DNA from: a virus | DNA length: 32,444 nucleotides | Virus record (IMG/VR): IMGVR_UViG_3300025086_000128 | Location: 1 to 32,444 of that record | Direction: 5' to 3' (one strand) | Shown: in pieces, positions 1-23,332 of the stretch | How the letters are laid out: each line of letters begins with the position of its first letter | How positions within the stretch are numbered: the stretch's first letter is position 1 | Program-made: the position numbers and the translations under genes | Notes under the pieces: generated by a model | What the model was told of the DNA's origin: nothing | The model's input: only the letters and a program-made list of their open reading frames with translations | Databases searched by the model: none

Positions 1-3000
1 TGTGGATTATCAGCATCAAAAGTTTCCATCTCACTTATAACATTTTCATTATAGTTAAGAGTTTTTTCAGCATTAACTACTTGTCTGATTTTAATGCCTA
101 AAACTGGTGAAAAGTTTAAAAGTTCCATTGGCACAGCACTCTCGTCTTTATTATAACCCTTTTCTCTTTGCTCTTTAAATTTAATAAGAGTATTTTTTAA
201 GGTAGATGCAATAGCTCCATATATACCAGCGCCTCTTAATATAGAGTCAATACTACCTTGTATTACTCTTTCTCTTTTCTTTAATATTTGATCTTCGTCT
301 TGATCATCGTCAAACATAACTGCAAATAAAGCTGTTTGCAAACTATAGAATATAACGTTTTGTATACCACCGTAATATAATATTTTAGATAAATTACCTA
401 AATTACTTTGTGTTTTACTAGTGTAAGGTGGTGATATCCTGCCCTTCATAACATCTAAAGCGGCTTTTTTAATTATTCTATTGTACTGTGACGTAATATT
501 TTGGAAGTTTAATATTAGTTTACCTATCCAACTAGCTTGTTGTTGCGACGTCATATCAGGTCTTGACGACTGCTGGGTTGACTGTGTTAAATCTTGAAAA
601 TCAGTAAAAGCCGCTGCCTCAGCTTCTTTCTGGCTTATGCCATCTTTTTTATATTTATTAACTCTATTTCTATAAAACGTAGCGCCACCAGTTGCGATTG
701 CTACATTATCACCAATTTGTGTAGGTAGAAACCCTAGTTTTAATAATCTACTTATTACTACTTTAGTTGGGTTTTTAGAACCAGCAACAGCTTGAGCGAG
801 ATCGTTACCGTTAATATCTGTGCCAATACCACCCCTTCTTTGTTTTAACATGTCAGAATTAAATATAAAAGCAAAATCGTTCCAGTATTGTTTTTGATTA
901 GCAAAAGCTTTAGCAGCTGCAAATATATTGTTGTCAGCAAAGTTTATATAGTTAACAATAGACATTTGCTGTAGTACTGCGGATCTAACATTAAAAAACA
1001 TAACAGTACCAACCGATCCATTTAAATAGTTCATAAGTTTATTAACTGTAGCGTGTTGGCCTTTTGGTCTGTTAATACCAGTGCCAATCCTATGCAGCAT
1101 GTCTTCTAACGCGCTTCTAAAATCAGCGCCATAACCAGCTTCAATTTTGTTTAAGTTATCTTCAGAAAATATTATATCAGCATTTTCGTTAAACTCTGTA
1201 AAATACTTTGCTCTACCAACTCTACCGGTGGCATCTATTAAATCTGTTTGTATATTACCACCTTCCCAGCCTTTGCCCGGCTCTACATATGTGTCTTGTT
1301 TAGATATTGTGTTAACTGTTTCCGCGTACTGCCTAAGATCTAGATCATTCATTACTAATTCGACTAAATTAGCTTGGTCTACCTCACTCAAACCTTCTAT
1401 AGTGTAACCATGTTTATTCCATAGATATATTCTTACAGCATCTTCAAATATAAAATCACCATCAGGTGTTTTCTTTCTAAGTTTCTTTTTAATATCTGGA
1501 AACTGTTTGTTTAACGCTTTGTAGTCGTTTGCTATTGCTTGTTTAGCTGTATCTATTTCTCTGTACGCTCTATTTAAAGGTTTAACCAAAGCTTGTTCAA
1601 AAAAGTTTCTATGTTGATCACCTCTTTTACCTTTACCCATAAAATTATATAACAAGCCTACAAAGTCTTCGTGCGATGGTGGTATAAATAATCTAAACTT
1701 ACCTTTCTTTTCACCACGTTTTCTAGCTTTTATAGCCATAAAACGTTTTTTAGCTTCAATACCAGTAACTTCTTCTAATATTTTATTAAAGTCATTATCC
1801 ATTGATTTACTAAACTTAATCTTAGCTTGTTGTACTTTAGACTTAACATCAAATTGTTCTAACATGTTTTTAACAGCCTGTACGTTTTGTAACGCATCAT
1901 CTGCGAAATAAAAGTCATTATAACCTTCGCCAACTTTATTGGCTATCCAAAGTGCTTTTGCCTCAGCTGTAGAATTACCAAGACCTGTTATGTTTTTTAA
2001 AGGTATATTTAAACCATTAGCTTTTAAAAAGTCAAATATAGCTTTTTGAGCAGCTGGTGGCCTAGCAGTTAAAACAAACATGTTTTTAGGGCCAAACTTA
2101 CTTTGTAGTTTCATTGCCTTATTAAACAATGGTGCTAACTTACCTTTAACAACTTTATTAAACTCAGAAAAATCAAATGTATAACCTTGGTCTAATAAGT
2201 TCTCATAAGTACTAGCATACTGCTCAGCGTTTAAAGTACCAGTTGTACCATCAGGTCTAGTAAACTTAACTAGTGATTCTGTTGTAGCTAATGTATCATC
2301 AAAATCTAAAACAGTAATACCTTTAGTAGGGTTATTAACTGAACGAGAAAATCCAATAGCTTTACCAAGTGTTTGTCTGTCTTTAGGTTTAGGATTTAGC
2401 AACTCTGTTTTACCTTTTAATTTTAAACCTTTAATATATTCTAATACTTTTGGCATGCTTTCATAACCTTTACCGTTACGATTACTAGTATGACCAGGAT
2501 ACTTTTTTATTAAACTATTTATTTTATTAGGTAAAACATGTACATAAGCGTTATTTAAAAATTCACTTAATTCAGTTCTATCAATTTTACCATCTACATG
2601 ATCCATTATTTTTCCTAATATATCATTTGCAGTTATCTCATGCTCTAGTACAAGATCTTTAGCTTTACCTTTTACATAGTAACCTGATTTAGATATTTTT
2701 CTAATCGGACTTCTTTGACCGTAAGACGTTAGCGACAATATAGCTTTTATACGCCCCTTACTTAAACCAGAATCTAATAATTTAAAAAGCCATTTACGCG
2801 CTTGATCTGCTTGCTTATCAATGGTTTCCGCATGTTTACTTGGATTTGATTTTATAGCTGTAATTTCTTGATATAAACCTAAAGGCTGTAATTTACCGTC
2901 TAAATTAATTTCAACTTTAAAACCACGTTTGCCAGCCGGTGTTAACTTAAAATACTTATTATAATCTTTACCAAATATTTTAGAAACCTCTTGTTCTAAA

Positions 3001-6000
3001 AGTTTTTCGTTAGTAGTAATATAATCTACCATAGATGATCTTATTGGTCTACCAACGTTTATTAAATATTCAGCCACAATACCAACCTGCTCTTTAATTT
3101 CTAAACCTTTTAATAAACTTTTGTAAAAATCAGCAGCATATTTTTTTGCATCACTTCTAATTTCTTTTGCATAATAAGTCTTTACACCATCCTCAAGTTC
3201 TTGCATTGGCATAAAATCAATGTTATGTTGCTTTTTAACTTGAGCATAAGCAGCGTCATACGATGTGATAACATCGTTACCTCTAGCACGTTCTTCCTGT
3301 AATTTAGAATAAAAATCATGAGCAATAACATTGTTACCATCTTTGTACTCTTCAATTTTTTTAGAAATATAAGGGTCTAATTTATTTCTTTCTTGTAAAG
3401 TTGTCAAAGAAAACTTAACTTTATTTTCTGCATTTTTAGAAAACTTTAATCTTAAATCCTGTTGTTCACCATTTATTTTTAAAGTTTGCAACTTTCCTGA
3501 GCGTATATCTTCAATGCTGCGTGCTTTTCTAGCATCAAGCGTAATTTCTATATTAACTTTTTGTCCTTGTAGTTCGTAATATCTTTCAAGATTAGGTATT
3601 TGGTTAACAGTACCTTCTACTTTTATAGTTTCTCTACCTAAATTAGAAATATAATCTGTATAAGTATTTGTTATTTCGTAACTAGTTATATTGTCAAGAT
3701 GAATAGCATCTCTACCGAATACGTTTTTTACTACGTCTTTTTTATTTTTGTAAACTCTTGTTTCTTTATCAGATAATCTATCTCCATTTTCATAAATACT
3801 AGTTGAAGCAATATCAATAAAATCACCTTCTGTAAACTCAAACTGTTTACCATGTAATTTACCGTTTTTACTATTAAATTCACTAATTATTACTCCGTCA
3901 AGATTTTTTACTATAACGCTACCAGTTTTATTGTCACCAATTACTTTTTCGTATTTTAATATTTTTGGCTCTATACCAGGTTTTTTAGGTTGAACTTGAA
4001 TAACTGGTCTAAAACCATCTTTTGCTTTTTTACCTTTAACTATAGGGGCATCAGTCGGGCTGTCGTTTCTATCCCACCAAGACATATTGTTGCCATCTCT
4101 AAAAGAAACTAATCTACCGTTGTGAAAAGCAATTTTAAATCCATTACCTTCTTGGTTGTAATTTTTCCAGTTACTCCAAGCTTCATCAAGCTCAGTCTTC
4201 TTGTCACCTATTAAGTCAGCATATACCTCGTACTCACCTTGTTTTTCTAACAAAAACATTTCTACTTTATAACCTTTGGCTTTCCACTCATCAGCAAAAC
4301 GCTCGGCTTCCTGTCTATTATCAAAGTTTCCATATTGTTGATCAATTCTAGTGTCCCTAGCACATAAACACCAAGGATTTGCTTTTTTGCCAAAATGAGT
4401 ATCTATTACTTTTCTAGTATCACGTTGTCCTTGTTTAGAGTCTTCAACATCGTAAACTGTAACACCATTGGTGTATTGAGTTTTATTAGAAAACGTTTTA
4501 ACTTTGTCTGGATCAGTTCTAGTAGCTTTAACTTCTCCAACATATGTTTCTATTAGAACATTAGGGTTTTTAAAAGAGAACGGATCTAGCTTCTTCTGGT
4601 CAGCTATTCTTTCAGCTTCTATAACTTTATAACCATCTTCAGGTAATATTAAGTAACCGTTAGCAGTATAGTGCATAGCTAACTTTTCATATTTAGACTT
4701 TTTGTTATTTGGTATGTTTTTACCTTCAACAAATTTAAATATGTTTTGTACAGCTTTATCCACTTGTTCTCGTGTAAGATCAGGTCTTTTCTTTATTAAT
4801 CTTTTTTCGTAAGCATCTCTATGAGATCTAGAAAACTTAATTTGAGAGTAAACATTAAAATCACCATTACCATCCATAGTGGCATTAATATCGCTAACCG
4901 CATTACTTTTAGAAAATTTAACATTTGTTTCTCTACCTATTTCAGCTGCTAAAGTTTGTAAGTTGTCTTGCGCTAATATTTCTCCTTTTAAATCAGCTAA
5001 CTCTTGTCTTTTTTGCATTACCGCTGGTTCTTGAGCAACTTCCATTGTTGCGTCATAAGCCAATGCACCAGCCATATACTTAGCTAATTGATCTTTTCTA
5101 GTACCTCTTTTTCCAGATCTTTGTTTAGTTATAGGATTAAAAGCTGGTATATCAAAAAAACTAAGTAACTCGTTTTCTGTAACATCAACTTTTTCATACA
5201 AATTAACAGCGGTACCTTTATCTATAATATTTAAAGATTCAGGTGGTAATAGTTTTTGATCAACAGCGTCTTGTACTTCTTGTTTTGATGTAAGTTTTCT
5301 AACAAACCTAGTAAATACTCTTTCATCTTGCGGTACATTTCTTTCTAATTGCACTAAATCAGAAGTAAACATAACTTTCATTATAGGTTCTCTAAACTTT
5401 TTTAGGTTACTAACGTACTCTTTGTTTCCTAAAAAGTTTTTAACTGTTTTAAATAAGTATATATTAGCTTCATCTCTTAATTTTCTTTGTATATTTCTAA
5501 CAGACGTACCAGCTTCGTAAGCCCTTAATAAAGCTTTACGAGCAGCACCTAAAACATCATTGTATATTTTACCACCAGTTTCAATACCTATAGCTCTTCT
5601 AAATTCAGACTTTTTTTGTATTTCTGCTTTAGCTTTTTCAGCTTTTCTTCTATTTCTAGCAGCTGGTGATATATCTTCTCTTTCAAAAGCTTCTAATGCT
5701 GTATCAGTTTCTGCCGCAACTTGTACTTTTACTTCGCCTTCTTTTGTTCTGCTATCTACATCTTTAGCTTGTTTTTCTTGTTCTGTTTTTTTATATATTT
5801 TATTATAAACATCACCAGCTCTAAATTTTATTCTACCTTGCAAATAACCAAAAAGACTTTCGTTTTGCTCTGGTTTAAAGTTTTTTATATCAGGTGTTAA
5901 TTGAGTTATAACATCATCAACAAAATTTGCAGGAACAACATCAGCTTTATATTGAGCTCTTATTAAAGCGTTTAAATAACCTTTTTCTTTTATTTCTTTA

Positions 6001-8258
6001 ATAACATTATCAACTTCTGCTTGATAGTAAAAATTACCAGTGCCTTTTTCTCTAAGATTATTACCGTCTGAATCTACTTGTCCAAGTTTGTCAACAGCTT
6101 CTTTAACTTTAGCTTTTTGCTCAGCTGTAATAGATTTTTTCTTAACACTTTTTGTTTCACCTTCAACAAGCTTATCACTAGTTAGTTCAACATCTAATAT
6201 TTTAGTGCCCATAAGTTTACCAAGTAAACCTTTTCTATTTATATTTTTATTATATGTTTGAATAAACTTAATAAAATCTTGTGCTGTGTTTAGTTTAAAC
6301 TCTCCATAACCAAATCCTGCAGCAATATCTTTAAGCTCGTTTCTTAAACCTTTTGATTCAAGCTCTTTTAAATCTATTAGTTTTTTATCTAATAAATCAG
6401 AAAACACGGTCATATACTCTTCTAAAGCTCCTTTTTTTATAGTACCATCTGGATTAGTATAAAACCGATCTATTCTTCTTTGAACTCTACTATAAGCGTC
6501 TGGATTATTTTTTTGCAAATAATCTTTTAACTCGTTTATAAATGGTTGCATTGAAGCGTTGTCAGTTTTAAATTGTCTAGAGATCATATAATGAAAAAGC
6601 TCATGGCCTAAAACATTTGTAGCACTAGCTACCGCTGCTATATTTTCATTTATATATATTGTAGCTTTACCATCTTTATCTTTAGCTAAAAACATACCGT
6701 CAGATTTTTTTACACCTTCCTGTATTTTTTTTGGCAACGCTTCTATTTCTTTGTTATTTTTAAGTCTAACTATGTTAAGATCATCTCTATTAATACCTTT
6801 TGTTTTTTTAAGTCTTTCAGATATTGCTTCAGAAGCTTTTAACGCTTCTCCAATAGCTGTCTCAACACCAACATCTAAATTAGTATCACCTAGTAAGTCA
6901 AAATTTTGTTGATAAAAATTTCTTATTTGATTTTCCGCGTTGGCTCTAGCTTGTTCTGAGTAATTAGTATTATTAATAATATTTAATAATTTATTAGCGG
7001 CATCTTCATTTTTTCCGTATTGTAATTTTTCTTTATTAGACAACGCTTCAAACTTAGCATATAAATCTTTTTTATTTTTGTCTGACTGTTCAATTAATTT
7101 TTTTTGATTGTTTTCAAAAAATTCTATATTTTGTTTATTGCCATCTTTTTTAGCTTGTTTTAAATCTAAATAATTTTCTTGAATTTCTTTTGCAATTTGC
7201 ATTTGTTGCTCGTGAAATTGTTTTGGAGCTAAAAAGTGAATTAATTTTTCTTGTTGTTCTTTTGTGTTTAATCTTCCTTGTGTAACTCTAGAACCTCCAG
7301 TTACAACACCACCCATTAAACCACCAATAACAAAAGAATTTACACCACCCCTTATATAATCGCTTGTTGATTTTGGGTCTCCAAAAATAAATTGATCAGC
7401 AGCTTGTTGTCCAATATCAGTAAGAGTTTCAGTTCCACCTTCAAACAAAAAACCTAAACCAGCTTTTTTTCCAGCAGATTTAATAAAATTTTCGCTAAAT
7501 TCTTTAACTACTTTTTCTTTACCAGCACCAATACCCATTGTATATCTAGCAAGTTTACCACCAAGAAACTCAGCGCCAAATTCAGAACCACCTTTAACTA
7601 AAGAATTATACCATATATTTTCTAAAGTTTGATCTGGTCTATTTTTTATAGACTCTTTAAATGACTCTCCAGCAACTGTAGCACCTAAAGTCATAGAACC
7701 AAGAACTGGAAAAGCAATAGATAAAGCTACAGAAGGGGCCGAGCTTACAGCTTGATAAGTGGCTAGTTCAGCAGCATCACCATATCTACCATCCTCTATT
7801 AACCCATAAAAATCAGCTTTTTGTTTAGTGTCTTCATCATATTTCAAAATGCCCATAGAATCATAAGCTTCTGTAATTTCATCTAGAGTTTTAGTTAACA
7901 TATTAACACCATCCTCGTTCATTTCTTCTTTTGTCATGCCTATAGCGCTTTCATAAGCGCCTTCTATTAAGCTAGCCCCACCGCTTATGTTTCTAGTCAT
8001 AAAACCAGATAAGCCAGTTATAAAAGGAACTAAAGGTTTAGGTATGTTATATAAATTAGAATAAATATCTGTATTAATTTTATTAAAAAGAATCTCTTGG
8101 GCCATCTGTTTTTCACCAGCATTAGTAGAGCTTGTTTTTCTCATACCACCATCAAGATGAACTTGCATAAACTCATCAAAACTAGCATAGTCTTGTTGAC
8201 CTGCAAAAGCATTTTGTAAATCCTGTAAAGTGTATTGATTGCCTTTATACTCAAACAT
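1..8258 (-). CDS. Giant multidomain (polyvalent-type) virion/ejection protein, 3' end outside window
   Basis: One continuous minus-strand reading frame of at least 2752 codons, running off the left edge without a stop. The ATG at 8258-8256 shares one base with the TAA of the upstream gene (TAATG), which fixes the start and suggests translational coupling. Seen in order: hydrophobic, Gly-rich stretches in the first ~330 residues; a zinc-peptidase motif HELFH at residues 552-556 with a following EEY (613-615) as possible third ligand; a WCLCA motif at 1296-1300; a HAD-type phosphatase signature (DFDDT 1985-1989, T2064, DD 2120-2121); and a C-terminal region from about residue 2400 that resembles large polyvalent-protein-associated domains (LPD38-like), with a hydrophobic segment. 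Last gene of the ejection-like set, in the position T7 gp16 occupies in T7. Inference: stored in the capsid and delivered with DNA. Exact domain families were not searched. Confidence 0.85.
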   Translation of the reverse strand, partial: MFEYKGNQYTLQDLQNAFAGQQDYASFDEFMQVHLDGGMRKTSSTNAGEKQMAQEILFNKINTDIYSNLYNIPKPLVPFITGLSGFMTRNISGGASLIEGAYESAIGMTKEEMNEDGVNMLTKTLDEITEAYDSMGILKYDEDTKQKADFYGLIEDGRYGDAAELATYQAVSSAPSVALSIAFPVLGSMTLGATVAGESFKESIKNRPDQTLENIWYNSLVKGGSEFGAEFLGGKLARYTMGIGAGKEKVVKEFSENFIKSAGKKAGLGFLFEGGTETLTDIGQQAADQFIFGDPKSTSDYIRGGVNSFVIGGLMGGVVTGGSRVTQGRLNTKEQQEKLIHFLAPKQFHEQQMQIAKEIQENYLDLKQAKKDGNKQNIEFFENNQKKLIEQSDKNKKDLYAKFEALSNKEKLQYGKNEDAANKLLNIINNTNYSEQARANAENQIRNFYQQNFDLLGDTNLDVGVETAIGEALKASEAISERLKKTKGINRDDLNIVRLKNNKEIEALPKKIQEGVKKSDGMFLAKDKDGKATIYINENIAAVASATNVLGHELFHYMISRQFKTDNASMQPFINELKDYLQKNNPDAYSRVQRRIDRFYTNPDGTIKKGALEEYMTVFSDLLDKKLIDLKELESKGLRNELKDIAAGFGYGEFKLNTAQDFIKFIQTYNKNINRKGLLGKLMGTKILDVELTSDKLVEGETKSVKKKSITAEQKAKVKEAVDKLGQVDSDGNNLREKGTGNFYYQAEVDNVIKEIKEKGYLNALIRAQYKADVVPANFVDDVITQLTPDIKNFKPEQNESLFGYLQGRIKFRAGDVYNKIYKKTEQEKQAKDVDSRTKEGEVKVQVAAETDTALEAFEREDISPAARNRRKAEKAKAEIQKKSEFRRAIGIETGGKIYNDVLGAARKALLRAYEAGTSVRNIQRKLRDEANIYLFKTVKNFLGNKEYVSNLKKFREPIMKVMFTSDLVQLERNVPQDERVFTRFVRKLTSKQEVQDAVDQKLLPPESLNIIDKGTAVNLYEKVDVTENELLSFFDIPAFNPITKQRSGKRGTRKDQLAKYMAGALAYDATMEVAQEPAVMQKRQELADLKGEILAQDNLQTLAAEIGRETNVKFSKSNAVSDINATMDGNGDFNVYSQIKFSRSHRDAYEKRLIKKRPDLTREQVDKAVQNIFKFVEGKNIPNNKKSKYEKLAMHYTANGYLILPEDGYKVIEAERIADQKKLDPFSFKNPNVLIETYVGEVKATRTDPDKVKTFSNKTQYTNGVTVYDVEDSKQGQRDTRKVIDTHFGKKANPWCLCARDTRIDQQYGNFDNRQEAERFADEWKAKGYKVEMFLLEKQGEYEVYADLIGDKKTELDEAWSNWKNYNQEGNGFKIAFHNGRLVSFRDGNNMSWWDRNDSPTDAPIVKGKKAKDGFRPVIQVQPKKPGIEPKILKYEKVIGDNKTGSVIVKNLDGVIISEFNSKNGKLHGKQFEFTEGDFIDIASTSIYENGDRLSDKETRVYKNKKDVVKNVFGRDAIHLDNITSYEITNTYTDYISNLGRETIKVEGTVNQIPNLERYYELQGQKVNIEITLDARKARSIEDIRSGKLQTLKINGEQQDLRLKFSKNAENKVKFSLTTLQERNKLDPYISKKIEEYKDGNNVIAHDFYSKLQEERARGNDVITSYDAAYAQVKKQHNIDFMPMQELEDGVKTYYAKEIRSDAKKYAADFYKSLLKGLEIKEQVGIVAEYLINVGRPIRSSMVDYITTNEKLLEQEVSKIFGKDYNKYFKLTPAGKRGFKVEINLDGKLQPLGLYQEITAIKSNPSKHAETIDKQADQARKWLFKLLDSGLSKGRIKAILSLTSYGQRSPIRKISKSGYYVKGKAKDLVLEHEITANDILGKIMDHVDGKIDRTELSEFLNNAYVHVLPNKINSLIKKYPGHTSNRNGKGYESMPKVLEYIKGLKLKGKTELLNPKPKDRQTLGKAIGFSRSVNNPTKGITVLDFDDTLATTESLVKFTRPDGTTGTLNAEQYASTYENLLDQGYTFDFSEFNKVVKGKLAPLFNKAMKLQSKFGPKNMFVLTARPPAAQKAIFDFLKANGLNIPLKNITGLGNSTAEAKALWIANKVGEGYNDFYFADDALQNVQAVKNMLEQFDVKSKVQQAKIKFSKSMDNDFNKILEEVTGIEAKKRFMAIKARKRGEKKGKFRLFIPPSHEDFVGLLYNFMGKGKRGDQHRNFFEQALVKPLNRAYREIDTAKQAIANDYKALNKQFPDIKKKLRKKTPDGDFIFEDAVRIYLWNKHGYTIEGLSEVDQANLVELVMNDLDLRQYAETVNTISKQDTYVEPGKGWEGGNIQTDLIDATGRVGRAKYFTEFNENADIIFSEDNLNKIEAGYGADFRSALEDMLHRIGTGINRPKGQHATVNKLMNYLNGSVGTVMFFNVRSAVLQQMSIVNYINFADNNIFAAAKAFANQKQYWNDFAFIFNSDMLKQRRGGIGTDINGNDLAQAVAGSKNPTKVVISRLLKLGFLPTQIGDNVAIATGGATFYRNRVNKYKKDGISQKEAEAAAFTDFQDLTQSTQQSSRPDMTSQQQASWIGKLILNFQNITSQYNRIIKKAALDVMKGRISPPYTSKTQSNLGNLSKILYYGGIQNVIFYSLQTALFAVMFDDDQDEDQILKKRERVIQGSIDSILRGAGIYGAIASTLKNTLIKFKEQREKGYNKDESAVPMELLNFSPVLGIKIRQVVNAEKTLNYNENVISEMETFDADNP

Positions 8259-9658
8259 TATTTTTCTTTTTTGATGACTGGGAAGTTTGTATTTCTAAAT
8301 GGATTTTTTCCTTTTGGATCTGGTATTCTATCAAAACCTATAAGATCTCTTAAATTAGCAATTTGATTCGGTGTTTTAATTGTAGATTTATTATTCTCAC
8401 CTATGTGTTCAAAATTACCATCATTCATTCTAGTAAAAGTATAATTTACACCGTCAAGTTTAACTGTAATTTCATCACCTATTTCACCGCTTTTTATAGC
8501 GTCGTATTCGTTTTGCATCATTACTTGAGTTCTATACCCATATTGAGAAGGTGTTTTTTCTACGTTTTGTAGATTAAACCTTCTTGATTGCTCGTTTTCT
8601 AACCTATTTTTCTCAGCGTTTATTTTTTGCCAATGTTCAGCGTGCTCTCCTTCCGCTTCTTTAAGCAATCTTTCTTTTAATATTTGATTAGATGTTTCTA
8701 AGTCAAAATCATCATTTTTATGATTAACAACCGCGTCTATAAAGTTTGCTTTTTCAGTGTCACTTAAAACTGCATCACCATCTATATCAAACTTAGTTAC
8801 ATCTATACCAAGAGCAGTTATTATTTCAGCCTCTAAAGTACCATCTGCCATATCTTGCTCAAGTAGACTTTTTAAGTTTTGTTTACCACCTCTTTTGCCT
8901 GGTAAATCATTACCTACCATACCTCTCCATTCGCTTTCGTTTGAAGGTAAGCTTCCTAAAACCTTTACAAGATAACCATCTGCGTCAAAAGTCTCTTGGC
9001 TTAACACATATTTTTTACCCTGCATATGTGCTACTCCTACTTTATCGTTTTTAAATATAGAGGCAAGTTGTTCGTATTCTTTAGATGGAACTAGTTTTTC
9101 TTCACCATCAATATCCAAATGAAACACAACATCACCTGTTTTTTCATCTCTACTAGTTTTTGTGTAATCACCAGTTTGTATCTTAGCTATAATACTATTT
9201 TCTTCCGCAGTGTAATCGCTTGTCATTAAACCATCTTTAACATCTTTAGCATGTTGTAAATTAAACGCTTTGTGGTTCTGTATCCAATTAGAGTGGTTTT
9301 GTATAAATTTAAGACCTTCTATTCTTTTTTTATCATCTTTCTGGTCAATACCTTCAAGGTATATTTTTTTAGCTTTAACCAACTCGTCGTAAGTGCTATC
9401 ATATAGTTTTTGACTTAATGTACCTGAGTTTAATAATACTTGATCCGCGGCATCGTCATAAAGTTTAACAGATTCATTATACTTTTTATTTTCTTCAGAC
9501 TGTTTATCTATAACCGCTGTAGCCAAATTAGCACCGGTTTGTGTTGCTAGCTGTAAACCAGTGTACATACCTGCAACATTGTCGTAATTTTTATACGCAG
9601 CGGCAGCACCTTGTATTAAAGCTGTATTAGCGCCGTAATTTGTTGTTTTCTTTGCCAT
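8258..9658 (-). CDS. Probable internal virion/ejection protein with an EF-hand loop
   Basis: 466 residues starting MAKKTTNYG. The N-terminus (about residues 12-50) is Ala/Gly-rich and amphipathic; the rest is charged and largely helical. Residues 291-302 read DIDGDAVLSDTE, a textbook EF-hand calcium loop (acidic side chains at positions 1, 3 and 5, hydrophobic at 8, Glu at 12). It lies 18 bases after a small Gly/Gln-rich protein and overlaps the giant protein by one base, so the three genes parallel T7 genes 14, 15 and 16 in order. I recognise no enzyme motif. Assignment as an ejection protein is by context; it could instead be another inner-capsid or tail-associated protein. Confidence 0.75.
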   Translation of the reverse strand: MAKKTTNYGANTALIQGAAAAYKNYDNVAGMYTGLQLATQTGANLATAVIDKQSEENKKYNESVKLYDDAADQVLLNSGTLSQKLYDSTYDELVKAKKIYLEGIDQKDDKKRIEGLKFIQNHSNWIQNHKAFNLQHAKDVKDGLMTSDYTAEENSIIAKIQTGDYTKTSRDEKTGDVVFHLDIDGEEKLVPSKEYEQLASIFKNDKVGVAHMQGKKYVLSQETFDADGYLVKVLGSLPSNESEWRGMVGNDLPGKRGGKQNLKSLLEQDMADGTLEAEIITALGIDVTKFDIDGDAVLSDTEKANFIDAVVNHKNDDFDLETSNQILKERLLKEAEGEHAEHWQKINAEKNRLENEQSRRFNLQNVEKTPSQYGYRTQVMMQNEYDAIKSGEIGDEITVKLDGVNYTFTRMNDGNFEHIGENNKSTIKTPNQIANLRDLIGFDRIPDPKGKNPFRNTNFPVIKKEK

Positions 9659-13624: not shown

Positions 13625-16600
13625 TTAAATAGCTGTTCCGCAAGGTAAAAATTGATTACTACTACTTGGTGGCGGTTGTCCTGCTACGTTATAAGCATGG
13701 TTTGGTCCTGGGTTAAAATAATTTGTTGAACCATGCCGAACTATTCTACCTGGCGCGTAAGCAATGTTTGGTTGCCAAACAGGAATAGTATTACTGTGTC
13801 CTATTTGTTGGGGCTGGTCACAACCGTTTAAACATGGAATATCAAACTCATAAGGACAAGATCTACCAAAATTATCTGTTATAACAAGAGCATAAGCCAA
13901 TTGTATAGCGCCAGGAATAGTACTATTAGACATTTCTAAACCTGTAATACCAGCGTCTTTTAATTTATTACCATTAGCATCGGCATTTGTCCCTATTGGA
14001 TGAATATAATTAGCGCCCATTCCTGATGTTATGCTACTGCTAGTAAGAAATGGCCCATATTGAACACCTATAGGTATTGCAACGCTAGCACCTGGGAAGA
14101 AGTTTCCGTGAACATCTCTATCCCACTTGTAGTATTGAATAGTAAAACTATCAGGATAAGGACAGGCACCCACGGGTATCATTACGAATCCAGCTGGAAA
14201 ATAACTTGTTGGTGCTAGAGGACTGTCATCACAAAAAGGATTAAAAGCACCATCAAAATTACTCCCGTCAGCACAACCACCTGTTCCATTTATTGGTGTT
14301 GCTGATGTTGTGTGAAGGCTAGCGTGACCACCTGGTTGACCAGTTGTAAAACCTATAGGTTTAAATGGAACTAAAGAAGTACCAATTTTTGGACCATGAC
14401 AATCGTCACAAGTCCAACTTGGAAATTCCCCTTGGTTATAGTTTAAATAAGGATGAGGTGTTCCACTAGGAGGACAAGGAGGACACGGTATGTTACAAGG
14501 TACAGTTACATTTTGTGTAAGCACACACCCTAGCATATCTGTCACTGTGAAGTAATAGTAACCGTTATATTGAGGATTTTGACTAGACCATAAGTTAGTT
14601 GGTCCTGCTAAAGAAGATGGTAACGTAGGATTTGTAGAGTTATATGTGTATAGCATTTGATCCGTACCAGTCGTGTTGTCATGCCAGAAGAATTCTAGTG
14701 TCCAAGATGGTGGTATTTGGAAATTAGTTAAATTAACGTTAGCAATAACTTGATTTTGATTTCCACCAGTAAATACTATTGTACCATCACCATTATCACC
14801 AGTTGTACAATCTGCACTAGTAGCGTGTGTAATAGCAAAATTCATTGCGGGTTGACCTGCTCCTATAGGACAAGTAGATGTGTTGTTACAAGGAATTTCA
14901 AATTCTTCAACAGTTATACAACCAAAATTATCAAAAATTACGACAGCGTATTTATTTCCTGAAACTAAAGTACTAGACAAGCCTGTTATAGAACCAATAC
15001 TACCATTAGCATTTGACACATTTGTAAAAGGACCTTGAGCACTACCGATTATTAAAGTCGCATTACCTATACCTGGAAAAGAAGAGCCAAGAGTACTAGT
15101 ATTCCACTCATAATACCTAACTTCAAAACTAGTTATAGTTGAGGTGTTAAAATTAACATGTAGTATTTCGTGAGCACCACCCGCATCATCAGTATTACAA
15201 CCATCTGTACTGTTAGCTGCTGTTATATTTTGCCCTGGGTTCCACGCAAGTGGACTAGTGTTAGGTATTGTAACTTCACTAGTACACGTATCTGTACAGT
15301 CAAGTGTAAAAGGAACTTTTGGGTAAACACACCCAGTATCATCTGTTAATTGATATTTATAGTTTCCTTCAGAGAGACTATCAGTTACTTCGTTTATACC
15401 AGGAGATATACCTTGGTTTGACGCAATAAGATTTGAAGGATTTGTGTTACCAAAAATACCTGGTTTCCAAATTCTATAACCCCAAGTAGTTGCAGGGAAA
15501 TTTAAAGATACACATCCAATAGCTACTTTACCACCATTTTGTTGTGGACCAAAATCACCAGGTTCCCAACATCTACCTAACAACTCAAACCATTTTGGAT
15601 CTTGTTTAGAAAACTGAAACACACCAGGTTGAGAGTTACAAGGTAAAGCGCCACATTGAATAGAAAAAGGTTCTTCAAATCTACAACCCATATCATCTGT
15701 TATTACAGCTACATAATCTCCTTGAGCAAAGTTAGTTTGTAAAACAGAATTACCATTTGTTGTGTACGTACCACCGTCCGTAGCCACAATAGTACCACTA
15801 GTGTCTTCGTAGTGAACTTGCCAACTTGTAGCTGGAAGTTGTAAAAATACACTTACATTTACAGAGCCATCATTACAAGCATTAGGTTGCGCATTGTTAG
15901 TGTGAACGTTTATTACGTAAGGAGGACCATTTTTTATTAAAGTACATGGGTCAGGCGTACATAAATTGTTGGTATCAGCGTTGCACATTGCTTCTGTTGC
16001 GTATGCTCCAGATAACCCTTGTATTTCAACACAAGTATGTGTTGGTGGAGGAGCGGACGCTATTAAACTGTTAACTGCAACAGTAAACTCTTGGCATGGA
16101 ATTCCTAATTTTCTTTTTCCGCCTCCAAATAACGTTCTTATACTATTTAAGAAAGGACCAGAGTGTTGTGGATTAGCAGTGTTAAAAGCGCTGTCTGTAA
16201 TAGCAGGGAGCCCATTAACATAACCGTCTGGAGTAGCACCATTTCCAGAGTTAACGGAATATATTAAACTTAAAAATGTATCAAAATCTATACCATTAGT
16301 AAAAGTAACACCCCAGTTTTGTTGAACACTTCTGTCGTTCCAATAATCAAGTACTTCTTGAACATTTTTATATATAATTCCAGTAATAGGATTAATTATC
16401 AAACCTATTCTATAAGGATTATTATCTATACTAGAAACAAAGTGATATTCATCAAAATTAAAATTATGCCTGGTAGAATCATCAAAAAACCAACGTAAAT
16501 CATTTTCGTGTATTGATGCAACGATGTTTGAAGCTATAGCACCAGCTTGAAGAGTATCTTCCGTACAGCCATCATAAACATCATATTGTTGACTTTGAGG

Positions 16601-19600
16601 AGATACCGGACATTGAACACATCTTACTGGTGGTGGTTGTGAAATTGGCTGACAATCCCAAGACGTAAAATCACCACCTATTACTGTAACAGCACTACTT
16701 TCATCAATACCTTGGTAAGAAAATTCTTTAGTATCTATATTACCAGCTGTACCGTCGTCTAACCACTCCGTGTGAACACCTTGAACAGTAGAAAACCATT
16801 TACCTTCTTTATTTTTAAACTCAGTAGGTTCAACCTCTTGCAAGTTAGTATACATGTTATCAACATACCAACCTAATTTATCATAATTATCCCAATACTC
16901 TCCTGAATTACTTGTTTGATTTAAACCACCATCAGATGTTATTCTTGATTGAGTGCCTTCGTAATCTAATGTTTGAAAACTTTTTACAGATCCAGGTATT
17001 TCATTAAATAAAAACTCAACACTAGACTCTGTAAATTCACCGTAAAAATTATTGTATTGTTCTGTTAAGTGGTGTTGATATAACTGACCGTTTTTAAAAG
17101 TAAAGTATTCATTATTTAAACTTATACCATTTTCATAATGAAAAGATTTAAAACTAGGCCAGCCTCTAACTTTGTCTGCGTATGACAATGTTATTGGATC
17201 TTTAGTTTCAACAGAAGTATAAACTCTAGTATCCCAAACCACATCGCTAATAACACCTACTGTTTGCGGGCCATAGTTATTAGGACCAGATAAACTACCA
17301 ACGTCATTGTTGCTAGGCGTTAAACTTAAATGTATTTTAAAAGTACCACCACCTAAGTTTTCTTTTAATATAACAATCGTACCAATTGGTATACCAGGTC
17401 CAACTATATCATCACCAACTTCTACTTTATTGTAAAGCTCATAAGGAGCTATTAATTGATTAATTGGAGAATATGTTATTGGTCCTGTAACTCCAGCACC
17501 CGCAAGCGGTAAAATTGGTATTCCTAAAATTTTAGCAGAATAAGTTGTGTAATCGTAATAATCTAAACTAATATTATATTCTTTTTTCTTATCGTCAAAA
17601 CTACCTATTATATTTGTAGTACTAGGTAAGTTATCATTAAACCAATCAGACATACCATATTGTGATATAGGTGTTATACCATCTCTAGAAAGTCTTAATA
17701 CACTACCTCTTACGCTATCAGTAAAATATAATCTATAAGCATCAGAAGCTAAAGATTCAGGGTTTTTAGATATTCCATATTCTCCAGCGAAAGGCATTGT
17801 TTGTCCTAATACTCTATCTGTTGCGGTAACATTTGAGTTTCCATCTGCATTAAATAAAGCGTCTTTATCTGCTAATACTCTAAATACTTTATCTTCGCAA
17901 AACGTTACTAGATCAGTATCTCTAGCAAAAAGCTTTTGTATACTACCATGATCTGGGTTTAAATCTTTTGTTATTTTTTCAGCTTGTATAAATTGATTTA
18001 AATTATTAACACCACTTAGTGAGTTGTATATCCCAGAGTATATAAACCCATTAGACCTTTGTTCTTCCATGTAAGGCTCTTCAAGAACAGCGGATACCTT
18101 TGGTCCTTTGTCTATTGTTATCTGATTAAAATCATCTCTAATACGATTAGATTCAACACCGTTACCAAAAGAATAAGCGTTAAAAAATGGTAAGGTAACA
18201 GGATAATTGTGTGCGTCTAATTCAACTTCAAATATAGGTAAAACCAAGCTTGTTCCAGACCAAATTGGAGCTACTCTTACGTTTATAGATGTAGAACTCC
18301 CATCTGCTCTTACAAAAGTCAATCTAGAACCTACTGGTGGCATAGTTTGCCCAGGTTGACCATTTAATGGAACCCCGTTGATATCACACAACACTAAATA
18401 AACCCTGTCTTGTAGCACGTAGGCTTGATGTACTCTAATGTCTTTAGATTGATCAGTAGAAACACTTACAGCTACACCACCAACTGTGTCTAAAACTATA
18501 GTCGCGCCGCCCCCAAGTGCAGTTGTGTCCATACACTCGACTTTACTATTTTTACTTAAAAAAGCTGGACTCACGGCAATATCCCCAGCGTGAATAGGTC
18601 CAAAAAATTGATCTATATTAGACTCGTTGAGCTCAGTTGGATATATTTGACCAACCTCGTGGTATATTTCAAGTCCTAAATCGTCTTTAGGTTCTGTTTC
18701 CCAAATACCAGGATTTTGACTGAAATAACCCTCTGTATTACCACCATCTGTACCATAAGGTTCTAATATTTGCCAAGTACAACTACCAGGCGCTGGACTC
18801 ATTACACCCGCTCCATCCTGCATTTTTAAACCTGGTATTTTATCATAAGTATTAGTACCACCAGCATCGTTAGTTAAAGTAAAATAATTAGCACCCATGC
18901 TGCGACCGGAATACATACCGTCTGGACGTATGCCTGGTGCAACCGTAGATGGGGGTGTAGTTAAAACATCTCCATTGTGATCATAATGCGGGGCTAACGA
19001 AGCATCATTTGTAGGCGAGTAAAAATGAGGACCAATACCAGCTATACCCTCAGTACCAGTTGTCGTGCCACCAACGCCATTGGTTTGTCCCGGTAAAACC
19101 TCTGCGTATATTTGAAATCTTCTTCTTCTGTTACTAGCAGATCCCCAAGCATTGGTAAACATAGGCCATCTATTAGAAGTTGTAGATTCTCGTTTAAACC
19201 ACGACGCTTCAGTAGCGTAAGTTGTAGAACCACCACTGCCAGTAAAGTTAGTATTTGAATCTTGATAATTTCCTATACCTTGAGAAGCCCAATTTGCTCT
19301 ACGATGATAAGACTCCGGTGTAGGTAAAGATATAGGTGGAACTCCGCCCTTACCTATTTGGTTTAAAACGTGTTCAGTGACATAATCCGCTATTTTAGTA
19401 TAATTATAAAGCTCTATACCTCTTTCCGCTGTTGGTTGCCATTCACTTTGATCGTATTCATTTGCATTAAAAGTACCACCAGAAATATTAAGGCTTGCAG
19501 CCGCTGGAGAAGAACTCAAAGCTTTGGTTACATACACAACTTGCCCTGGGTCTTCTTTCCATCTCCATATAGTGTTAGGTGTAGTTATATAATCTATAAA

Positions 19601-22600
19601 CTCTTGCTGTGATATGTAATCTCCAGCCCAAGTAGCAGAGTTAAAATACGAATATAATTTATCTTGTGAAGATACGTCACTCATTGTAAATTTTACAGGA
19701 GAATAACTATTTGCACCACCCATACCAGCAAAAGACAACGTAATAATACTGTGATTACTACCATAAGAAGGACTACTAGAAGGCGCTCCAAAACCAGGTA
19801 ATATTTCACCACCATTAGTTTTTGTTTCGTTAAATAAAACGGTATCTAAATTACCACCACTATTAACCCAATAAGGATGATTACTTAATAATGGTGATTT
19901 AACATTAGCTAAACCTAAATAACCACCATTAGGACCACCCTCTCCATTTGACACGTGGTTAGTACCATCGCCTATTAATTGTAGTTGGTGATTAGGGTTG
20001 CCGTGATAATTTCTCCAATCACCACCCCAAACAGCATGAAAACGATTAGGACCACTAGCAGGGTCTCTATTCCAACCCTTGTTCCAATAAGAACTAATAA
20101 GTACACTTGTAGCTCCACTATTAGAGCCTATAGCCGCCACTGAACCAAAAGACATCCAGCCGGGTTGATAAGTAGCACCGTGTGTTGAATATTTCCATTG
20201 ATGATTACTTCTACTAGCGTGATAATTAGCTTGATATTTATTATAAGCCCCAGTACCACTTGGTCCACTAGGACCAGCAAGTGGAGCTGTGCCAGTGTTT
20301 GCGTAAAAAGCAGGGTAATTAGATTCATCAAAATAATAATTATTGTAGTAAAACGGTCTAAATGCTTCAATTTTATCTATGAACCAACCACTGGAATCAC
20401 TAGCTGGATTGCTAGTATTACCAGCTCGCTCCCAATAAACATGACCAAGTCCATTATTACACGCTGAAACGCCGGTTTGCTGATTATCACTATCTATAAG
20501 TATTTCGTTTATACCAGCCGGGTGCGTGGCGCCGGGGCTTAGACCATACCAAGCAGAAGGATCTGTAGCTGGGTCGTATATACCACCATTAACAGTATTG
20601 ACATCTCTAGGGTTTATGTATTGAGAAACTATTTGTGACACAGATGTGTATGTACTTGCTAAACCAGTATAACCTAATATATACTGTTGTAACATGGAAT
20701 CTTTTAATATTTTAACAAAAAATCTACCTTCATACTCTGGTTTAATTTTTTGTTCTCTTTTTATAAATTCTACTCTATTGTTACCATACGCAGGTGTTAT
20801 GGTTGAAGCAGGCGCACTAAAAGGCGTTGTAATACCCATATCTACGCCAAACTCTCTATCTGCAGTTATTTTCCAATAACCACCAACAGGAATAGTAGCC
20901 CCAGCGTTACGGTTTTCCCAACTTTTAACAGTATACCAATCACTAGCGCCGTTGTTTGAAACAATTCTAAATTGCTTATCAGTTATTTCAGGTTCTTCAT
21001 CCCATATTTTAGCTTGTACTCCAAATTGATCGTCATTTATTTCTATAAAAGTACCGCCAGGATAAGGAAAGTCAACGTCTGTTGGACCACCACTCATTAG
21101 TATTGGACCAGCAGAAGTACCCGACGAGGTGCCATCTATAACAGTTCTCACCGCTGTGCGCTCTGTTTTGACAAACTCAGGGGCCTCGTTCTCTATTGCT
21201 AATATTTTATATCTTGCCAAGTCAGTTATAGGCACATTAGATTCGTGAGATTTTTTTAATATTAAAAAAGTTTCTATATCCACCTTGCTTCTATCGGAGG
21301 ATGGAAATGTAATCCATATGTTACCGTCTTCAGCTAAATACCAACGATCCATTGCTAAGTTGTAATACTCACTAGACGTTTCTTTTACTAAAAACTTAAA
21401 CGCTTTAGCGAAATCTGGTTTAGCACTCCATATTTGCGCGTCAAGTTTCGTTTGACGTGGGGCGTGTTTTTTCTCTATATATATTGAGTTTTCTTCTGTT
21501 GAAGAATCTGAAAATACTGGGGTTTCTCTTCCGTACTCATCTATATAGATAACACCTAGTTGGTAAGTTCTAAGAGATTTTATTGTTTTAGCAGAATTAT
21601 AATTGTAAGCTGTAGCCGGGTTTAATTGCTCTGGATCAAGTGCGCCAACAGACAAATGTCTCGTTGTTAATCTTAAATCAACTGTAATATTTTCACTCGC
21701 CCTTAACGCTGATAGTTGATTAGTACCTGGGGTATATAGTCCAGTTGGTTGCTGTAACGTAGAAGAAACTAAATTATAGTTTTGTAAATAGTTAGCATAA
21801 ACCAATCTGCTACCTATAACCTCTTGAGCTAAAGCTTTTCTAGGCACGTTATCAAAAGGTCTTAGTAATTGATTAGATGGTAATAAAGCGTGTATCATTT
21901 CCGCTTCTATTTTTAAATAACCATAAGTTCTAGCTGGAAATACTAAAGTATCATCACGTAATTGGTTTGGAGAAATAGCGTTATAATTTTCGTAAAAAGC
22001 ATTAGGTGATGTATCTAAAGAAACTCTATCTACAGTTTTTATAGAGTAAACAGAAGGATTGTCAGATTCTTTATATAGTATATCAATACTAACCACATCG
22101 TCTGGTATTGAGCGTTCGTCTACAAAGTTACAAACACCAAGTTCTCTAACTGTATTTACCATTGCTAAATTATAACCTTCTTTTGGTAAATAATCATAAT
22201 CACCAGGTAAAAATGCAATTTCTGTAAAAGGTGAAAAAGCAGAATACTCACCATCTTTGTATTTATATCTACTAGCAAAACGTGGAAATCTAAACTCGTA
22301 TAAAGCTTCAGGTTGAACTAAAGATACATTGAAAAAATTATCAGTTAAATCTACGTTTTGATCATAACTAAGTATCTTTATTGAAGCTATCATATTTGTA
22401 CCAGTAAGAGAGCTTTGTAACCCAACAATTTGAACAATTATACTTGTTTTTTTCAAAATACCTGTTGCTGGCGCAACAGATTCTATTTTTAGTTTGTCTC
22501 CAATATAGAAATCAGGATAATCATCAAATTGAACTGAAATATTACTAGTAAGGTAATTACCTGAAGCTGGGTCAAACCAAAGACTTATATCGGTGTTTAA

Positions 22601-23332
22601 AGTTGTTGTTACTTGACCTACCATAGGCCCAGAGCCTAAAACATCACCACGTTCTGTGTTTTTCATTTCAAGCATAGGAGCAGTTTGAGGACCTTTCCTA
22701 ATTACTGTTATATGTTCGTGTTTTAAATTTATTGGATTGCCAAGATTGTCTAAGGCTTCTACATACGGAAAAGACGCGGCTAGTGTTTTGTCTGGGTTTG
22801 GAACGTAAAAAATTGTATGTGTAAAAAAGTCAGGAGTCCCAAGTCTTGTTTTTGATATATTAATTCTTTTTGGCTCAGTGTTATCATCTGTCCAAAATAA
22901 AGTATCTTCTATAATATTAATACCAGTTATTAAATAGCTTTTATCAAAGTTTAAAACTCTACCACCTTCGCCAGGTAGTAAATTTGGAAAAAATATATCA
23001 ACAGCAATTGGAGATACTTTTTTTGTATTGTAGTCGTATTCAGCTATAAAATCAAGACCTATACCAGATACTAACCAGTATAATCTGTCTTTTTCACCGT
23101 TTTTAATACTACCTACACAATGAAAACCATATGATTCTAAATTAACACCACCAAAAAATTCAGATGAAATATCTAAATTACCCATTAAATTTTGAAGTGA
23201 TCCCATATCAGACTCATCTGATGTAGAAACTTGAGCGTTCATTGCGTCTCTATACTCACCATTAGGAACTAGTCTTTCGTCTAGGTCCTTATTCATTTTA
23301 CCCGCTTGAAACCTATGATTTAAATCTGGCAT
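13625..23332 (-). CDS. Giant tail protein, muzzle/stabilisation-like N-terminus with SprB-like C-terminal modules
   Basis: 3235 residues, the largest complete gene here. The N-terminus (KMNKDLDERLVPNGEYRDA, then the SDMGSLQN region) is a pattern I associate with the tail muzzle/stabilisation proteins of crAss-like and related marine phages, which close the short tail around the DNA channel. The body is beta-rich with many Trp, Tyr, Asn and Gly. The C-terminal fifth holds tandem Cys-bearing modules ending in an ITDDMGC-like motif (see separate entry), a CxxC pair and a CDDCH motif at 2975-2979. Preceded at 4 bases by the ring-like protein gene and followed at 23 bases by the Ig-domain protein. 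Such length suggests that receptor-binding domains are fused to the tail hub. Family assignment by memory, not search. Confidence 0.78.
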   Translation of the reverse strand: MPDLNHRFQAGKMNKDLDERLVPNGEYRDAMNAQVSTSDESDMGSLQNLMGNLDISSEFFGGVNLESYGFHCVGSIKNGEKDRLYWLVSGIGLDFIAEYDYNTKKVSPIAVDIFFPNLLPGEGGRVLNFDKSYLITGINIIEDTLFWTDDNTEPKRINISKTRLGTPDFFTHTIFYVPNPDKTLAASFPYVEALDNLGNPINLKHEHITVIRKGPQTAPMLEMKNTERGDVLGSGPMVGQVTTTLNTDISLWFDPASGNYLTSNISVQFDDYPDFYIGDKLKIESVAPATGILKKTSIIVQIVGLQSSLTGTNMIASIKILSYDQNVDLTDNFFNVSLVQPEALYEFRFPRFASRYKYKDGEYSAFSPFTEIAFLPGDYDYLPKEGYNLAMVNTVRELGVCNFVDERSIPDDVVSIDILYKESDNPSVYSIKTVDRVSLDTSPNAFYENYNAISPNQLRDDTLVFPARTYGYLKIEAEMIHALLPSNQLLRPFDNVPRKALAQEVIGSRLVYANYLQNYNLVSSTLQQPTGLYTPGTNQLSALRASENITVDLRLTTRHLSVGALDPEQLNPATAYNYNSAKTIKSLRTYQLGVIYIDEYGRETPVFSDSSTEENSIYIEKKHAPRQTKLDAQIWSAKPDFAKAFKFLVKETSSEYYNLAMDRWYLAEDGNIWITFPSSDRSKVDIETFLILKKSHESNVPITDLARYKILAIENEAPEFVKTERTAVRTVIDGTSSGTSAGPILMSGGPTDVDFPYPGGTFIEINDDQFGVQAKIWDEEPEITDKQFRIVSNNGASDWYTVKSWENRNAGATIPVGGYWKITADREFGVDMGITTPFSAPASTITPAYGNNRVEFIKREQKIKPEYEGRFFVKILKDSMLQQYILGYTGLASTYTSVSQIVSQYINPRDVNTVNGGIYDPATDPSAWYGLSPGATHPAGINEILIDSDNQQTGVSACNNGLGHVYWERAGNTSNPASDSSGWFIDKIEAFRPFYYNNYYFDESNYPAFYANTGTAPLAGPSGPSGTGAYNKYQANYHASRSNHQWKYSTHGATYQPGWMSFGSVAAIGSNSGATSVLISSYWNKGWNRDPASGPNRFHAVWGGDWRNYHGNPNHQLQLIGDGTNHVSNGEGGPNGGYLGLANVKSPLLSNHPYWVNSGGNLDTVLFNETKTNGGEILPGFGAPSSSPSYGSNHSIITLSFAGMGGANSYSPVKFTMSDVSSQDKLYSYFNSATWAGDYISQQEFIDYITTPNTIWRWKEDPGQVVYVTKALSSSPAAASLNISGGTFNANEYDQSEWQPTAERGIELYNYTKIADYVTEHVLNQIGKGGVPPISLPTPESYHRRANWASQGIGNYQDSNTNFTGSGGSTTYATEASWFKRESTTSNRWPMFTNAWGSASNRRRRFQIYAEVLPGQTNGVGGTTTGTEGIAGIGPHFYSPTNDASLAPHYDHNGDVLTTPPSTVAPGIRPDGMYSGRSMGANYFTLTNDAGGTNTYDKIPGLKMQDGAGVMSPAPGSCTWQILEPYGTDGGNTEGYFSQNPGIWETEPKDDLGLEIYHEVGQIYPTELNESNIDQFFGPIHAGDIAVSPAFLSKNSKVECMDTTALGGGATIVLDTVGGVAVSVSTDQSKDIRVHQAYVLQDRVYLVLCDINGVPLNGQPGQTMPPVGSRLTFVRADGSSTSINVRVAPIWSGTSLVLPIFEVELDAHNYPVTLPFFNAYSFGNGVESNRIRDDFNQITIDKGPKVSAVLEEPYMEEQRSNGFIYSGIYNSLSGVNNLNQFIQAEKITKDLNPDHGSIQKLFARDTDLVTFCEDKVFRVLADKDALFNADGNSNVTATDRVLGQTMPFAGEYGISKNPESLASDAYRLYFTDSVRGSVLRLSRDGITPISQYGMSDWFNDNLPSTTNIIGSFDDKKKEYNISLDYYDYTTYSAKILGIPILPLAGAGVTGPITYSPINQLIAPYELYNKVEVGDDIVGPGIPIGTIVILKENLGGGTFKIHLSLTPSNNDVGSLSGPNNYGPQTVGVISDVVWDTRVYTSVETKDPITLSYADKVRGWPSFKSFHYENGISLNNEYFTFKNGQLYQHHLTEQYNNFYGEFTESSVEFLFNEIPGSVKSFQTLDYEGTQSRITSDGGLNQTSNSGEYWDNYDKLGWYVDNMYTNLQEVEPTEFKNKEGKWFSTVQGVHTEWLDDGTAGNIDTKEFSYQGIDESSAVTVIGGDFTSWDCQPISQPPPVRCVQCPVSPQSQQYDVYDGCTEDTLQAGAIASNIVASIHENDLRWFFDDSTRHNFNFDEYHFVSSIDNNPYRIGLIINPITGIIYKNVQEVLDYWNDRSVQQNWGVTFTNGIDFDTFLSLIYSVNSGNGATPDGYVNGLPAITDSAFNTANPQHSGPFLNSIRTLFGGGKRKLGIPCQEFTVAVNSLIASAPPPTHTCVEIQGLSGAYATEAMCNADTNNLCTPDPCTLIKNGPPYVINVHTNNAQPNACNDGSVNVSVFLQLPATSWQVHYEDTSGTIVATDGGTYTTNGNSVLQTNFAQGDYVAVITDDMGCRFEEPFSIQCGALPCNSQPGVFQFSKQDPKWFELLGRCWEPGDFGPQQNGGKVAIGCVSLNFPATTWGYRIWKPGIFGNTNPSNLIASNQGISPGINEVTDSLSEGNYKYQLTDDTGCVYPKVPFTLDCTDTCTSEVTIPNTSPLAWNPGQNITAANSTDGCNTDDAGGAHEILHVNFNTSTITSFEVRYYEWNTSTLGSSFPGIGNATLIIGSAQGPFTNVSNANGSIGSITGLSSTLVSGNKYAVVIFDNFGCITVEEFEIPCNNTSTCPIGAGQPAMNFAITHATSADCTTGDNGDGTIVFTGGNQNQVIANVNLTNFQIPPSWTLEFFWHDNTTGTDQMLYTYNSTNPTLPSSLAGPTNLWSSQNPQYNGYYYFTVTDMLGCVLTQNVTVPCNIPCPPCPPSGTPHPYLNYNQGEFPSWTCDDCHGPKIGTSLVPFKPIGFTTGQPGGHASLHTTSATPINGTGGCADGSNFDGAFNPFCDDSPLAPTSYFPAGFVMIPVGACPYPDSFTIQYYKWDRDVHGNFFPGASVAIPIGVQYGPFLTSSSITSGMGANYIHPIGTNADANGNKLKDAGITGLEMSNSTIPGAIQLAYALVITDNFGRSCPYEFDIPCLNGCDQPQQIGHSNTIPVWQPNIAYAPGRIVRHGSTNYFNPGPNHAYNVAGQPPPSSSNQFLPCGTAI
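13820..15930 (-). repeat. Five SprB-like Cys modules within the giant tail protein
   Basis: Five diverged protein repeats, each ending in hydrophobic-x-D-(D/N/M)-x-G-(x)-C, then 4-6 residues, F or V, two residues and C. Anchor Cys residues are 2550 (ITDDMGC), 2668 (LTDDTGC), 2805 (IFDNFGC), 2936 (VTDMLGC) and 3159 (ITDNFGRSC), so spacing is 118, 137, 131 and 223 residues. Modules A to D begin near a Cys/Asp/Gly stretch such as ACNDGSV. The layout resembles SprB/PKD-type adhesin repeats. The DNA is too diverged to register as nucleotide repeats. Confidence 0.6.

Follow-up and report, generated by a model that had tools for sequence, protein, structure and literature searches.

Giant phage proteins in which many unrelated domains are gathered around a zincin hub, in a neighbourhood of virion genes, have been described as polyvalent proteins (Iyer et al. 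2017, PMC5512222). The virion RNA polymerase (vRNAP) of coliphage N4, a protein of about 3500 aa that also contains a zincin, is packaged in the virion and has a role in early transcription. Zincin-bearing giant virion proteins are therefore already known from these two systems. A third point of reference is phicrAss001, a muzzle-bearing podovirus of Bacteroidota that stores large cargo proteins in its head and tail (PMC10172136). For phages without an RNA polymerase of their own, the start of the takeover of host transcription is often unknown.

The giant protein described here resembles polyvalent proteins in its many unrelated domains, its zincin hub and its virion-gene neighbourhood, and N4 vRNAP in its size and zincin. 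N4 brings its own polymerase, whereas the giant carries a module resembling sigma-70 region 2, and no Rpb1-type polymerase was found in its relatives. The likeness to the phicrAss001 cargo proteins gp45-gp50 (PMC10172136) is one of Bacteroidota podovirus context, muzzle and protein size; crassvirus cargo differs from the giant in that it includes RNA-polymerase subunits. The novelty rests on the sigma-like, zincin-linked module. We found no description of a virion-borne sigma-like domain in the literature searched, the coverage of which is incomplete, and the polyvalent-protein paper (PMC5512222) does not mention sigma, haloacid or phosphatase. We attach an even chance to the reading of the giant as a modular virion protein of polyvalent type, probably ejected, whose sigma-2-like part engages the host RNA polymerase.

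The window, that is, the whole stretch of DNA analysed, is the entire 32,444-base viral record IMGVR_UViG_3300025086_000128. It holds the structural half of a tailed phage: the C-terminus of the terminase, the portal, several virion proteins, a muzzle-domain protein and, at the record edge, the giant. The genes referred to below are:

3..8258, minus strand: giant virion-type protein, 2752+ aa, its C-terminus running off the record edge
8258..9658, minus strand: upstream gene, 466 aa, overlapping the giant by 1 base and belonging to a family common to 68 upstream genes of relatives
13625..23332, minus strand: tail protein, 3235 aa, with a crassvirus muzzle C-terminal domain (context)
29298..31715, minus strand: portal protein, which places the phage near Elemovirus, Pervagoviridae and Pachyviridae

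The single frame of more than 2752 residues that the initial annotation described is present in the ORF listing, opening with ATG and running for 2752 aa without a stop codon up to the end of the record; from complete homologues, a median of 95 residues is estimated to lie beyond the edge. The 1-base coupling to the upstream gene also exists (TAATG) but is not a family trait. In 120 relatives the giant is preceded by a large gene with a median length of about 500 aa; the median spacing is 6 nt, and only 8 of these relatives have the 1-base overlap, which rules it out as a conserved coupling. The closest portal is that of a Manatee Spring phage (53%), followed by Elemovirus (43%) and Cellulophaga phi38:1 (36%), and from these neighbours the host is probably a member of the Bacteroidota, presumably a marine one; the nearest cultured relatives infect Flavobacteriia. 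Neither Rfam families nor tRNAs were found in the window. The muzzle domain of the 3235-aa protein, in a relative of Elemovirus and Pervagoviridae, hints at a tail architecture common with crassviruses. A 473-aa protein at 12180-13601 has a C-terminal bacterial Ig (Big_9) domain and is likely a tail or receptor-binding component.

The giant itself is divided into the following regions, in order from its N-terminus:

7269..7805, minus strand: N-terminal block, residues 152-330, common with the giants of phi18:3, phi38:1, Elemovirus and Gundel
6090..6767, minus strand: zincin-like metallopeptidase domain, residues 498-723, with HELFH (552-556) at 6591-6605 and E614 at 6417-6419
5709..6032, minus strand: sigma-70 region-2-like module, residues 743-850, after the zincin, from profile searches and hhalign
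4692..5675, minus strand: helical module, residues 862-1189, common to about a quarter of relatives
3999..4511, minus strand: W-C module, residues 1250-1420, holding WCLCA and a SPOR-like insertion, in 12 of the giants examined
1818..2330, minus strand: predicted HAD phosphatase domain, residues 1977-2147, its fold closest to the T4 PNKP 3'-phosphatase
3..1811, minus strand: conserved C-terminal helical region, residues 2150-2752, in all complete relatives and with no Pfam match

The N-terminal block, which includes a hydrophobic stretch at residues 171-189, ties the giant to cultured flavophages. Residues 130-330 have homologues in phi18:3 gp123, elemo gp18, phi38:1 gp101 and Gundel gp74, the last three of which are encoded at the corresponding end of the structural genes. 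The GenBank record of Cellulophaga phi18:3 gp123 carries the note 'experimental MS/MS proteomics analysis'. Because of this homology and the matching gene position, the window giant is probably located in the virion, as the initial annotation had proposed, the MS/MS annotation itself belonging to the homologue gp123. The comparison with T7 gp16 made there holds for gene position but for nothing beyond it. The flavophage giants share the N-terminal block and operon position with the window giant, and Gundel gp74 also its C-terminal region; in contrast to the window giant, all four are without a significant sigma-2-like or HAD module.

A scan with the whole giant protein returned 18 relatives, while profile scans with the C-terminal region and the HAD domain returned at least 539 and at least 529, respectively; tblastn with the complete giant as query found no match in 50,697 phage records. 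The fetched IMG/VR loci yielded at least 121 unique complete giants (2032-3620 aa), and HExxH is present in 116 of these 121. Because C-terminal and HAD searches supplied the set, these two domains are over-represented in it. A block map, in which E-values from small sets and iterated profiles serve as inclusion criteria and not as significance, describes a mosaic: the zincin region occurs in most members, residues 860-1200 in a subset and the W-C part in few. This exchange of modules bears out the polyvalent-like modularity suggested earlier, and, as in polyvalent proteins, several unrelated catalytic domains stand in one protein near virion genes. The suggestion that the C-terminal region is itself of polyvalent type found no support: no Pfam 'polyvalent' LPD domain was detectable there in any of 15 members scanned, and the other Pfam searches of the giants detected no known LPD or PolyVal domain either, these families being divergent. 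Pfam searches of 103 variable middle regions gave isolated weak matches only and no recognisable toxin or enzyme. With Foldseek, neither long model had a PDB match at E < 0.001, and in BFVD this level was reached by two uncharacterised viral proteins only.

The zincin identity of residues 498-723 is well supported by sequence. All 59 aligned relatives keep H552, E553, H556 and E614, the last supplying the third ligand, so that the HExxH plus downstream Glu of zincin metallopeptidases is complete; HExxH arises in 1.1% of composition shuffles of the giant. The PADLOC model for the CapP metallopeptidase matches with E 3.1e-5 against the whole protein and 2.7e-6 against the domain, and matches 3 of 11 family members. 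These results support the assignment of HELFH to a zinc peptidase. A profile search of PDB sequences returned nothing useful, and structural comparison gave a weak match to anthrax lethal factor (Z 4.8, 144 residues aligned, 6% identity). Lethal factor is also the protein with which profile searches are reported to connect the N4 vRNAP zincin (PMC5512222).

Behind the zincin, residues 743-850 form a module that the initial annotation had missed and that shows remote homology to sigma-70 region 2. When 177,635 PDB sequences were searched with a profile built from 51 copies, 12 matches came up at E ≤ 10; 11 of them are sigma factors, which belong to several types and align over a common region (8b3z, E 0.0035; RpoS, 0.042; sigma-K, 0.048; FliA, 1.2). 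A trimmed second profile placed sigma factors at ranks 1 and 2 (0.0034, 0.0065) and in 10 of 16 matches, while a smaller third profile ranked OPA1 above them. Compared with sigma region 2 by hhalign, the module gave Prob 83.9 at a score of 36.0 and Prob 71.0 at a score of 33.1, whereas column-shuffled decoys did not exceed scores of 14.2 and 23.6, nor nine other modules from the giants 16.3. Against four E. coli sigma sequences and one phage sigma, Prob was 67, with 0.4 for a control module. The match extends over 60-72 columns and includes an F-x-P..G..(F/L)..Y core, the conserved positions mapping on sigma-70 D403, I405, L412, F419 and Y430 and on the P..G turn. VIA-align gives Z 5.0 to sigma-70 for residues 743-850, which is weak for helices.

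No region 4 was found in the giant (all modules tested at or below Prob 2.2), and the module differs further from sigma-70 factors in being embedded in a giant protein and in not retaining equivalents of W433/W434. In sigma-70, this aromatic pair is used in promoter (-10) melting. It could be argued that the zincin and HAD domains are real and that the sigma-like part is a helical hairpin that arose by convergence, serves structure or packing and makes no contact with RNA polymerase. The remoteness of the similarity, the missing promoter-melting aromatics, the OPA1 ranking and the rarity with which single sequences of the module match PF04542 in Pfam would all fit such a hairpin; the predominance of sigma factors at one aligned region and the far lower scores of the other modules and shuffled profiles do not, and we consider convergence rather unlikely. 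Under a second alternative, the module acts as a decoy: seated at the sigma site of the host core polymerase, it would shut off host transcription instead of starting that of the phage. A region 2 on its own, without region 4 or the tryptophan pair, is what a decoy might look like; however, sequence cannot separate blocking from recruitment, and the separate sigma factors of related phages would meet the same block. We regard the decoy as unlikely. The preferred reading remains a module that engages the host polymerase.

The module is found in 70 of 129 giants at E < 1e-3, and a search of viral contigs with the module alone identified 233 relatives. All 79 newly fetched copies lie within such large, mostly zincin-containing frames, and in 111 of 120 unique copies the module starts 120-230 residues after HExxH (median 171). 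No significant match was obtained in the cultured phage records and cultured relatives examined, and no bacterial or archaeal genome in the genome_contigs collection yielded the module at this sensitivity.

The gene content of related phages is consistent with a phage that works through the host RNA polymerase, judging from their separate sigma factors together with the lack of a detected Rpb1-type polymerase. Separate sigma factors of about 250 aa score above the PF04542 cut-off in 6 of 8 (loci L186-L192) and in 5 of 20 related records, and a search of 11 related records (62-71 kb) found no Rpb1-type RNA polymerase, its controls being positive in 14 of 14. A search for T7-type RNA polymerase (PF00940) gave no match in 11 relatives, its control being likewise silent.

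The short motif FS[KR] occurs 371 times in 116 representative giants, against 125 expected from shuffles (shuffle maximum 149), and precedes the C-terminal region in 67 of the 116; ahead of the sigma-like module, [FMIV]SK is found in 38 of 115, the rate among random windows being 9%. As the representatives are related, these counts are not independent. The threefold enrichment of FS[KR] often falls at module junctions. We hypothesize that linkers of this type could be cut by the zincin. Such cleavage might instead take place in the head, with the zincin acting as a maturation protease during assembly and the giant delivered already processed, as proposed for P1 DdrB (PMC5512222). Both motif counts would suit this order of events as well; against it, FS[KR] is not strictly conserved ahead of the C-terminal region, and the comparable N4 vRNAP, likewise a zincin-bearing giant, is packaged without processing (PMC5512222). 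Processing before delivery seems fairly improbable to us, and we continue with cleavage inside the cell.

The initial annotation's HAD signature (D1985, D1987, T2064, D2120, D2121) is confirmed at the level of a structural model as a HAD phosphatase with a Rossmann-like HAD fold. Motif I (DFDDT, 1985-1989), the motif II threonine (T2064, in LTARP) and the motif IV acidic pair (D2120/D2121) are all in place, as in the HAD superfamily; DFDxT, TAR and DDAxxN show little or no variation among 12-73 homologues, and hhDFD[DG]T arises in 0.15% of composition shuffles. Pfam recognised DUF2608 in 11 and HAD in 6 of 12 members. A profile search of PDB sequences returned nothing useful, and the Foldseek result on the long models made VIA-align necessary for this domain. 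The AlphaFold2 model, built with 73 homologues, has pLDDT of about 80-90 across most of the domain, and its five top VIA-align rows are all PNKP-type 3'-phosphatases, a resemblance overlooked in the initial annotation. T4 Pnkp aligns with Z 13.0 over 126 of 142 residues (2.3 A, 12% identity), making its 3'-phosphatase domain the closest solved fold, with the same catalytic motif set; the kinase domain of the T4 enzyme has no recognised counterpart in the giant. Other HAD phosphatases follow within about 1-2 Z, so PNKP-like substrate choice is a lead and not a finding. The domain is present in most relatives and absent from L012, L013 and L016.

Taken together, the giant's combined domains may help the phage take over its host at entry. 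The protein would share the head with other cargo proteins and be extruded through the tail when the phage infects. Once in the cell, the zincin would cut the linkers and free the units. Docked on the clamp of the host RNA polymerase, the sigma-2-like unit could then either bring the enzyme to the incoming genome or exclude host sigma. The HAD unit might remove 3'-phosphates from broken nucleic acid, for example from ends left by host nucleases, and module exchange would tune the payload to host and defence. That the injected giant contacts the host polymerase through a zincin-released sigma-2-like module, and thereby commandeers transcription during DNA entry, is a tentative proposal that we hold with limited confidence. 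If true, an abundant family of probable virion proteins from Bacteroidota phages would, through its zincin-linked sigma-like module, provide a new means of beginning to control host transcription. The many modules exchanged naturally within the family also form a large series that could be searched for injected counter-defence functions.

The W-C module is a rare accessory. WCLCA does lie at residues 1296-1300, as described earlier, but a double-cysteine module is not supported: the second cysteine, C1299, varies among relatives (WCLAA, WCLIA, WCLTQ, WCITQ), which excludes it as a functional residue and leaves a W-C rather than a C-x-C motif. Searches of the module against PDB gave weak SH3 matches only. 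The SPOR/ferredoxin-like insertion within it (residues 1308-1351, 4206-4337) is variable among relatives. Genes annotated as GroEL and GroES occur in the Manatee Spring relative MW202828 (L020), and GroES also in elemo and phi18:3. Finally, 34 of the 121 giants (e.g. L167, L101, L086) terminate in Cys/His tails resembling zinc knuckles (C...G.RC...C..H).
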